A stretch of DNA of 24,785 bases. It comes from a virus. The stretch spans positions 1-24,785 of the IMG/VR virus record IMGVR_UViG_3300044818_000007, one strand, 5' to 3'. How positions within the stretch are numbered: the first letter of the stretch is position 1; each line of letters starts with the position of its first letter. Positions 20,291-22,609 of the stretch are shown here, one piece after another. The position numbers and the translations under genes were made by a program. The notes beneath the pieces were generated by a model. That model had not been told where the DNA came from. It ran no database searches and was given only the letters and a program-made list of their open reading frames with translations.

Positions 20291-20893
20291 TCAGTCCGTG
20301 GCCATTCCGAAAGAGCGCAGCACGTCAGCGGCGGCCTGGGAGGGCGGGCCGAGTTCGCCGGACTGGAACTGGATCCCGATCGCGGCCAGCCACAGCTGAC
20401 CGAGCTGCCCGTCCGACAGGTCGTCCCAGAACGCCGCGAACTCCTCCGGCGTCTCCGGCTTGGGCTCGATCAGCTGGGCTGCGACGAGGGCGGGCGCAAA
20501 CGTGTCCGGGTCGAACGCCGGAGTCTCTTCACCGCCGCGCGCCGCAGCCGCCTCGATCTGTTCCTTCGTCGGCGGATGGTCCGCGCGCAGCGTCTGGTAG
20601 GCGCGGTGGGTGACGGCTTCGAGGACGAAGCGCACCCGCGACTCCTCAGCCTCCGCCTCCGCCTCCTGCAACCGCTTGGCGACCTCGCGTGCCGTCTCCG
20701 TGCCGTTCGCGTCGTCGTGGCGCTGCGCCCGCTCCAGGAGCTCCTCCAGCGCCTCGGTCTCCGCGGACGCTTCCGCGTTCATGATGAGTTCGACGATCCT
20801 CCGGGGCCGCTGGATCTTGGCCCGGATGTCGGCGAACGTCGTCGTCGGCCTTGCGGCCCGCCGGGCGGGCGGCTTCCTGCTCGTAGGGGGCAT
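20291..20893 (-). CDS. Second tail assembly chaperone-like protein
   Basis: A 200-residue protein just upstream of the tape measure gene. It has a basic N-terminus, a charged helical region (EALEELLERAQRHDD, AKRLQEAEAEAEESRVRF) and a C-terminal domain that parallels the first chaperone: HRAYQTLRADHPP matches HHAYSNLLAAHPA, and FDPDTFAPALVAAQLIEP matches YDAGTFLPAVLAACCVVP. Chaperones of this type coat the tape measure protein during tail assembly. There is no frameshift extension, as only 36 bases separate its stop from the tape measure start. The ATG at 20893 has AGGGA upstream. Confidence 0.8.
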   Translation of the reverse strand: MPPTSRKPPARRAARPTTTFADIRAKIQRPRRIVELIMNAEASAETEALEELLERAQRHDDANGTETAREVAKRLQEAEAEAEESRVRFVLEAVTHRAYQTLRADHPPTKEQIEAAAARGGEETPAFDPDTFAPALVAAQLIEPKPETPEEFAAFWDDLSDGQLGQLWLAAIGIQFQSGELGPPSQAAADVLRSFGMATD

Positions 20894-20926: not shown

Positions 20927-21301
20927 CTACATGGCCTGCCGCACGGCGATCTCGATGCCTGCGATCAGGTCTTCGGCGTTCGCGTCGAGCGCGGGGCCGA
21001 GGTGTGGAATGGGGGCGTTCTTGCTGGTGCCGTACTCGACGATGTTTCCGAGCGGCCCCTGCGCCTTGCCCTTGTCGGGGCCGATCTCGCCCTCGATGCC
21101 TTCGCCGGTGACCTTCACGTCGTAGGTGATCGAATACGGGTAGGCGGGCAGGTACTTGTGGCCCTTGATGCGGTTGCGGGCGTCGTCCCGCACTTTCTGG
21201 CTGGTGATCTTCACGGCCTTTGCCACGTTGGTGGCGAGCCGCACCGGGAACGCCTCGAGGTCGGCCACCACCACGTTGAGGCCGGTCACCTGAACACCCA
21301 T
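20927..21301 (-). CDS. HK97 gp10-like tail completion protein
   Basis: A 124-residue protein of the HK97 gp10 family: VQVTGLNVVVADLEAFP at the N-terminus, AKAVKITSQKVRDDARNR, and the hallmark NIVEYGTSKNAPIPHLGPALD near residues 85-105. Members act in head-tail joining or tail completion. The ATG at 21301 overlaps the upstream stop by one base (TGATG); the frame is open further upstream, but that part is a shadow of the neighbour. It sits between the two chaperone genes, downstream of the major tail gene, rather than with the head completion genes where it is usually found. Confidence 0.85.
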   Translation of the reverse strand: MGVQVTGLNVVVADLEAFPVRLATNVAKAVKITSQKVRDDARNRIKGHKYLPAYPYSITYDVKVTGEGIEGEIGPDKGKAQGPLGNIVEYGTSKNAPIPHLGPALDANAEDLIAGIEIAVRQAM

Positions 21302-21660
21302 CAGGCCTCCCTCCGGAAAACGGACACTTTCAGGCCCTCCGTCTTGCCGCCGTCCTCGGTGTGGGCAGCCACCCTGCGGGCGCCCGCCAGGCAGGCATGG
21401 CATTTGGTGACCGACGCGTCATAGGCGAACTCGTTGTCCGCGTGCGTCGACTCCTTGAGGTCATGTCCGCAGTCCCCGCACAGCCCCGACTCGGCCTCCA
21501 GCAGAGCCATCGCCCACCAGCGGTCCTCAGGAAGAAACAGCGGCTCCCCCGGCCCCGGCATGGGGCGGCCGAGGAGGATGCTGCGTGGCACACCCCACGC
21601 CCGCGCCGCCTCCGCCTCCCGCCGGTACGGAAGGCGGGGATCCCGCAGGCGGGCTACGAG
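21301..21660 (-). CDS. Tail assembly chaperone C-terminal extension, made by -1 frameshift
   Basis: A 119-residue frame in the -1 phase of the first chaperone, open from upstream of its stop. It starts LVARLRDPRLPYRREAEAARAW and continues through GVPRSILLGRP, LPEDRWWAMALLEAE and a zinc-ribbon-like part (LCGDCG, CHACLAG). The only internal start, GTG at 21591, lacks a good ribosome binding site and would cut off the EAEAARAWG block, so expression as a fusion of about 276 residues is more likely. This mirrors the G/GT proteins of siphoviruses, where the T part contacts tube subunits and tape measure. Independent translation from 21591 cannot be excluded. Confidence 0.8.
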   Translation of the reverse strand, partial: LVARLRDPRLPYRREAEAARAWGVPRSILLGRPMPGPGEPLFLPEDRWWAMALLEAESGLCGDCGHDLKESTHADNEFAYDASVTKCHACLAGARRVAAHTEDGGKTEGLKVSVFRREA

Positions 21661-22130
21661 AAAGGGAGCGGACTGGGCTCCTCATTCACAGCCAGAGCGG
21701 CAGCGAACAGCGTCCGCGCGGTGCCGTCGTTCACCACATCCAGCAGCCGGTCCACCTGCCCCGGCGTCAGCGACGGCACGACGCAGCAGGCGGCGAGGAC
21801 GGCCGGCAGGAACGTCCCGGCGTCGTAAGGCTCCTTGGAGCCCTCCGGGGCCGGATGGGCGGCGAGCAGGTTGCTGTAGGCGTGGTGCCCGAGCGCCCGG
21901 AACCGGAACCCGACCGCGGCCTCTCGCACCCGCTGCCGGGCCGCCTCGACGCGCTCCTGCAGTTCGTAGGCCGGGTTCGTTTCGCCGAGCGAGATGGGCC
22001 GCCACTCGCCGAGCTGCCCCAACTCCTCCTCGAGCGCCTCCAGTTCTCCGGCCGCGTGGCCCGCGAGACACACCAGCACGGTGAGCTCGCGGGGCGACGC
22101 CTGCTCCAGCAGGGAGCTGATGTCCGGCAT
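21654..22130 (-). CDS. Tail assembly chaperone (short form)
   Basis: A 158-residue protein between the major tail and tape measure genes. It is helical: SSLLEQASPRELTVLVCLAG, AAGELEALEEELGQLGEW and ELQERVEAARQRVREAAVG, then a conserved-looking core FRFRALGHHAYSNLLAAHPA and TFLPAVLAACCVVPSLTPGQ. It ends ALAVNEEPSPLPFS, where PF is encoded by the slippery site. A minority of ribosomes should shift to add the 119-residue extension. The ATG at 22130 overlaps the major tail protein stop by one base (TGATG). A second chaperone-like paralogue lies at 20291-20893. Confidence 0.85.
   Translation of the reverse strand: MPDISSLLEQASPRELTVLVCLAGHAAGELEALEEELGQLGEWRPISLGETNPAYELQERVEAARQRVREAAVGFRFRALGHHAYSNLLAAHPAPEGSKEPYDAGTFLPAVLAACCVVPSLTPGQVDRLLDVVNDGTARTLFAAALAVNEEPSPLPFS
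21660..21666 (-). other. Programmed -1 frameshift slippery site CCCTTTC
   Basis: On the minus strand the 0-frame reads C CCT TTC, a canonical X-XXY-YYZ heptamer, two codons before the TAG stop at 21654-21656. Slippage by one base moves translation into the open frame that runs to 21301. Six bases downstream GC-rich inverted repeats begin (CCCG/CGGG at 21653-21642; CCCGCC/GGCGGG at 21638-21618), a suitable distance for a stimulating structure. Confidence 0.85.
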
Positions 22131-22609
22131 CAGGCGACGACAGCCCGCGTCGCCGGGTCGCTGGTGACCTTGAGCGGGCTCATGAACTTGTTGACCTCGT
22201 TCGCCGCGGGCGCGATGTTCTGCGCCTCGCCCGCCGTCACGGGGTAGACCTCCACCTTGTCGCCGGTGGCGTAGGCGGTGCCGTAGGCGGTTCCACGGCG
22301 AACCACCAGGTAGCCGGACGCGTTGTAGACGAGCGTCGTGTACGGCTGGTCCTCGATCGTGGTCGAGCCGCGCTTGAACGTCAGCTCCACCGAGTAGGAG
22401 CGGCGGCCGGGCTGGTTGGTGCCGAACGTGCTCGCCAGCGACGACGTGTCGACGTCCGCCGTGGACGGGTCCGTCTTCAACCCGTCCGGGGTGACACGGG
22501 TCGTCCAGTCAGAGCCGCCATTCAGCTCGGTCGTCGTCGGGGCGTTGATGTTGGCGATGGAGCCGACCCACGACACCTTCGTGTTGCCATCGCTGATCAG
22601 GTCACTCAT
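22130..22609 (-). CDS. Major tail protein (tail tube)
   Basis: A 159-residue beta-rich protein with the look of siphoviral tube subunits: a short N-terminal arm (SDLISDGNTKVSWVGSIANI), AELN-like loop TTTELNGGSDWTTRV, and RRSYSVELTFKRGSTTIEDQ and YLVVRRGTAYGTAYATGD strands. It polymerises into stacked hexamers around the tape measure. The ATG at 22609 has a strong AGGAGGG ribosome binding site five bases upstream, consistent with high expression. A T-tailed hairpin terminator lies immediately upstream. It is followed by the chaperone pair, as usual. Confidence 0.85.
   Translation of the reverse strand: MSDLISDGNTKVSWVGSIANINAPTTTELNGGSDWTTRVTPDGLKTDPSTADVDTSSLASTFGTNQPGRRSYSVELTFKRGSTTIEDQPYTTLVYNASGYLVVRRGTAYGTAYATGDKVEVYPVTAGEAQNIAPAANEVNKFMSPLKVTSDPATRAVVA

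Follow-up and report, generated by a model that had tools for sequence, protein, structure and literature searches.

The minus strand of the window, by which we mean the whole 24,785-nucleotide stretch of IMG/VR record IMGVR_UViG_3300044818_000007 analyzed here, almost certainly carries a tail assembly chaperone locus of the lambda G/GT type with a -1 frameshift at the heptamer CCCTTTC, in an actinobacterial siphovirus or prophage (Table 1). The heptamer is conserved among relatives, as are both of the reading frames that meet there, the genes stand in the order of a tail chaperone locus, and the frame-0 product has a chaperone fold. This resolves the gene model at a locus that automatic annotation misreads.

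Table 1. Features of the chaperone locus and its neighbors, in positions of the window.
Feature	Positions	Strand	Basis
Major tail (tube) protein	22130..22609	-	Pfam PF25595, E 1.9e-45; PHROG 2491
Frame-0 product, tail assembly chaperone G, 158 aa	21654..22130	-	ORF; PHROG 19248; AlphaFold model
SD-like GAGGAG, candidate 5' stimulator	21678..21683	-	11 nt 5' of the heptamer; best anti-SD match
Slippery heptamer CCCTTTC (C CCT TTC -> CCC TTT C)	21660..21666	-	Sequence and conservation
GC-rich inverted repeats 3' of the site, candidate stimulator of the initial annotation	21618..21653	-	Not supported as conserved
-1 frame extension T, 119 aa and stop TGA, CxxC...CHxC	21301..21660	-	PHROG 19456, PHROG 20192
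Predicted GT fusion, 157 + 119 = 276 aa	21301..22130	-	Follows from a -1 shift at 21666-21660
HK97-gp10-like tail completion protein	20927..21301	-	PHROG 5, 3.5e-10; TIGR01725 below its cut-off
G2, second chaperone-G paralogue without T extension	20291..20893	-	PHROG 19248; hhalign to G profile
Tape measure protein, 1771 aa	14939..20254	-	PHROG 10780, E 1.3e-87

The chaperone gene and its predicted frameshift site

The G open reading frame ends as CTC CCT TTC TCG TAG, in which CCCTTTC (21666-21660) lies in the X XXY YYZ phase suited to tandem -1 slippage and is separated by a single codon (TCG) from the TAG at 21656-21654. In the -1 frame no stop occurs between 21681 and the TGA at 21303-21301, which leaves 119 residues after the site. 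Both the in-phase heptamer near the chaperone stop and the open frame running 119 residues to 21301 had been described in an initial annotation made from the letters alone, and reading the minus strand bears them out. From this arrangement we infer ribosomal slippage, at a rate such that most ribosomes would stop at the TAG and release G, while a minority would move back by one base at C CCT TTC, with tRNA-Pro and tRNA-Phe re-pairing with CCC and TTT, and read on to 21301 to produce GT. By analogy with lambda, where the role of gpG and gpGT in tail assembly has been summarized (PMC5009743), G and T may have lambda-like binding roles, G coating the tape measure protein and T recruiting the tail tube subunit.

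The assignment of the frame-0 product as a chaperone, already made in the initial annotation, is supported by gene order together with fold matches to YqbN and HK97 gp13. The AlphaFold model of G (pLDDT 91.7) matches YqbN (3klu) at Z 9.2 and the HK97 gp13 tail assembly chaperone (2ob9) at Z 5.7, in alignments that span residues 1-150 at 12-15% identity, so that the chaperone fold extends over most of the model; most other structural matches of G cover just one helix pair. With Foldseek alone, no PDB hit for G was convincing and 3klu and 2ob9 fell outside the best 50 matches, and a sequence search against solved structures returned only chance-level matches. Compared with viral models, the G model matches the tail assembly chaperones of the Arthrobacter phages Faja and Molivia (E 4e-7 to 5e-5). 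Searches of isolated phages with the nucleotide sequence of the window or with the G protein gave no direct match, and T gave one.

The slippery site of lambda is GGGAAAG. Like the lambda genes, G/GT in the window is located between the major tail protein and tape measure genes, shifts to the -1 frame near the end of G, and acquires a C-terminal T extension. Unlike lambda, the window uses CCCTTTC, its T has a four-Cys motif, and T is separated from the tape measure gene by two additional genes, one gp10-like and one a G paralogue.

Conservation of the heptamer and of both frames

A protein search with the T extension recovered 48 loci in viral contigs, and an alignment-based search recovered 20 loci in bacterial genomes, nearly all of them Streptomyces or Kitasatospora, along with further viral loci. 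One of the relatives is a prophage-like contig of Streptomyces olivochromogenes DSM 40451 (L051). After removal of identical sequences, 75 relatives and the window provided 76 distinct sequences readable across the junction, the T of the relatives ranging from 90% down to 48% identity to that of the window, and column and codon statistics were drawn from 49 representatives that are less than 88% identical. An in-phase CCCTTT[C/T] is present in all 76 distinct sequences, a count to be read with the shared descent of the relatives in mind, which makes counts among them non-independent. Among the 49 representatives, the heptamer is the longest run of columns at least 95% identical within 240 nt, and identity at the three frame-0 third positions of the site is 100, 100, and 96%, compared with a mean of 63% upstream. 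Every representative (49/49) has an in-phase XXXYYYZ at the site itself, a pattern found by chance at 13 of the 5390 other frame-0 codon positions. The frame-0 stop follows the heptamer by 0, 3, 42, 45, or 48 nt depending on the relative, and the retention of the heptamer while the stop and its surroundings change is the pattern expected under selection for frameshifting.

The T frame is conserved as protein from its first residues, with L5, R13, E15, A19, and R20 invariant in 59 sequences, in which C61, C64, C87, H88, and C90 are likewise invariant. The cysteine motifs CGDCG and CHACLAG pointed out in the initial annotation are both present in T, and C61, C64, C87, and C90 constitute four candidate metal ligands with CxxC...CxxC spacing. 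All 59 members match PHROG 19456, a family whose N-terminal edge falls near T residue 17, which gives the impression that truncated calls went into it, and 15 of the 59 match PHROG 20192 ("tail assembly chaperone"). Because the model of T is confident (pLDDT 95.5) and still found no convincing PDB match with Foldseek and nothing at Z ≥ 2 in a second structural comparison, a zinc site in T may reasonably be inferred from the cysteines but is not advanced as a result; in the earlier description of the extension as "zinc-ribbon-like", the four cysteines hold up and the PDB comparison gave no fold match for a ribbon. Among the titles and abstracts listed for open-licence papers, none gave an account of a zinc T domain.

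Joined chaperones of this kind already exist in GenBank. The Arthrobacter phage Seahorse has a GenBank-joined tail assembly chaperone with an in-phase CCCTTTC identical to that of the window, and the joined chaperones of Anekin (CCCTTTT), EvePickles, and LuckyBarnes (both CCCAAAA) have related sites; for these four phages the joins were taken from the records and the heptamers were located here within the frame overlap. Seahorse, Anekin, and EvePickles resemble the window in having a -1 frame T with Cys motifs in a joined CDS, and differ from it in that T is only ~30-36% identical and neither a gp10-like gene nor G2 stands between T and the tape measure gene. Given these annotated joins with the same arrangement, one of them at an identical heptamer, the window does not represent a new phenomenon: the site and the Cys-rich extension were correctly read in the initial annotation, but they are less new than it implied. 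More broadly, a tool paper (PMC10885494) that covered 3679 SEA-PHAGES genomes reports 2397 joined chaperone genes among them, and each position of XXXYYYZ was occupied by any of the four bases. Among open-licence papers, none was found that connects CCCTTTC with frameshifting in phage tail genes.

Streptomyces phage ZL12 (pZL12.53/.52) and Brevibacterium phage AGM1 (gp14/gp15) also encode a homologous G followed by a short Cys-bearing frame that is reached via an in-phase slippery site (GGGAAAA in ZL12, CCCTTTT in AGM1); the two frames are annotated as separate genes, without a frameshift, which supports the remark in the initial annotation that gene callers miss the fusion. In the window, too, the mechanical open reading frame starts at GTG 21591 and encodes 96 aa, which is the truncated call that had been foreseen there.

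This call, together with the separate short T genes of ZL12 and AGM1 in GenBank, would be expected if T were a gene of its own, started internally (for example at GTG 21591), translationally coupled to G, and never fused to it. We consider this very improbable. GTG 21591 encodes the Val of WGVPR, and many relatives have Ile there (WGIPR); that position holds a start codon in only 18 of the 49 representatives, and no other position in the T frame does better. In view of this lack of a conserved start codon in the T frame among the 49 representatives, an internal start was rejected. Moreover, the residues before 21591 are among the most conserved of T, a separate gene would leave the invariant heptamer unexplained, and ZL12 and AGM1 themselves have in-phase slippery sites where their frames meet. 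The initial annotation had proposed conservation of the heptamer in related phages, and of the EAEAARAWG block before 21591, as support for a fusion, and both are kept across relatives down to 48% identity, with no relative found to have lost the heptamer while keeping both frames with separate starts. As a side observation, AGM1 gp15 (L146 2642-2860), labelled "translation initiation factor", and ZL12 pZL12.52 (L143 4034-4345) are each probably the T half of an unannotated frameshift chaperone.

P156 and F157 are invariant in G, and the heptamer could in principle be conserved only for this Pro-Phe pair at the G end, the overlap of the frames being a coincidence of two conserved genes. Such a reading has next to no credibility, as it does not account for the codons used: the Pro codon at the site is CCT in 76/76 sequences and is always preceded by C, whereas CCT is rare among upstream frame-0 Pro codons (52 of 701, ~7%). 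It also leaves T without a start of its own, and in the distant phages Seahorse, Anekin, and EvePickles the same place is occupied by CCCTTTC, CCCTTTT, and CCCAAAA, with annotated joins. Among the sequences compared, none was seen to encode Pro-Phe by non-slippery codons while keeping the two frames intact. Equally hard to credit is a change of frame by transcriptional slippage or a sequencing indel, since homopolymer runs of only three bases (CCC, TTT) fall short of what transcriptional slippage typically requires, and the presence of the same arrangement in dozens of independent assemblies, isolate genomes included, excludes sequencing error.

Candidate stimulators of frameshifting

Known frameshifting in dnaX is aided by an SD element and a stem-loop (PMC5009743). 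In the window, a GC-rich repeat, CCCGCCTGCGGG, begins six bases after the heptamer, where the initial annotation had located it with an implied role in frameshifting. Folding of the 70 downstream nucleotides in 22 sequences, and of an alignment of 20, does not support a conserved stem. The fold of the window is more stable than its shuffles (z = -2.2), while the z-scores of the other sequences scatter around 0 with no conserved structure, and the RNAalifold consensus reaches -3.9 kcal/mol with 10 pairs, one of them compensated, under a fold model without pseudoknots. On these two grounds, z-scores near 0 in relatives and compensation in 1 of 10 pairs, a downstream RNA stimulator was rejected as a conserved structure. 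The relatives offer many sequences for comparing a CCCTTTC site across G+C-rich actinobacterial phages, where no conserved 3' structure seems to accompany it.

Upstream of the site, GAGGAG (21683-21678) is the best anti-SD match in 260 nt when averaged over the 49 representatives, with a mean energy of -6.6 kcal/mol as against -1.9 (SD 1.35). An SD-like core is found 10-12 nt before the heptamer in 36 of the 49 and is missing in 13, and it overlaps conserved Glu codons. GAGGAG is a better candidate stimulator than the downstream repeats, but one that is confounded by codon conservation.

A second chaperone gene and the surrounding gene order

The gene order differs between two groups of relatives. 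In the clade of the window, in which T is ≥66% identical, the tube gene is followed by G/GT, gp10-like, G2, and tape measure, such that two genes separate G/GT from the tape measure gene; in a distant clade, the gp10-like gene has its place upstream, in the connector region, and T is directly followed by the tape measure gene.

G2 is a paralogue of G. Profiles of 51 G and 23 G2 sequences align by hhalign with a probability of 99.3% (144 columns, 28% identity), and when G2 is the query, G is recovered in nine of ten relatives' genomes. Readable members of the clade of the window retain G2 ahead of the tape measure gene, and none was seen in the more distant clade. No T-like frame follows G2 in the window, and it is plausible that G2 would be a supply of G-only chaperone. 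It may be, as a tentative and somewhat doubtful proposal, that the balance between G and GT in the window's clade depends in part on the duplicated G2, beyond frameshifting alone, or else that G2 serves a different region of the tape measure. The simpler idea that G2 is a chaperone for an enlarged tape measure was rejected as a rule, because the presence of G2 does not track length: tape measure proteins are 1287-1377 aa in three G2-bearing relatives and 1758-1779 aa in the others with G2, and about 990-1610 aa in relatives without it. Among the titles and abstracts listed for open-licence papers, none mentioned such a chaperone paralogue. The duplication exposed here could serve as a test case for how the ratio of G to GT is determined.

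Two further observations concern the neighbors of T. In the distant clade (L048, L055, L061, and others), frames 0 and -1 overlap for ~15 codons after the site, and the stretch 0-45 nt past the heptamer is read as protein in both frames. The gp10-like gene, which lies between T and G2 in the window, is upstream of the tail tube gene in distant relatives such as L048, L055, and L061. In the window its ATG overlaps the T stop (TGATG), such that translation of the gp10-like gene might be coupled to frameshifted ribosomes, and an SD-like GGAGGGAGG is also present just upstream.
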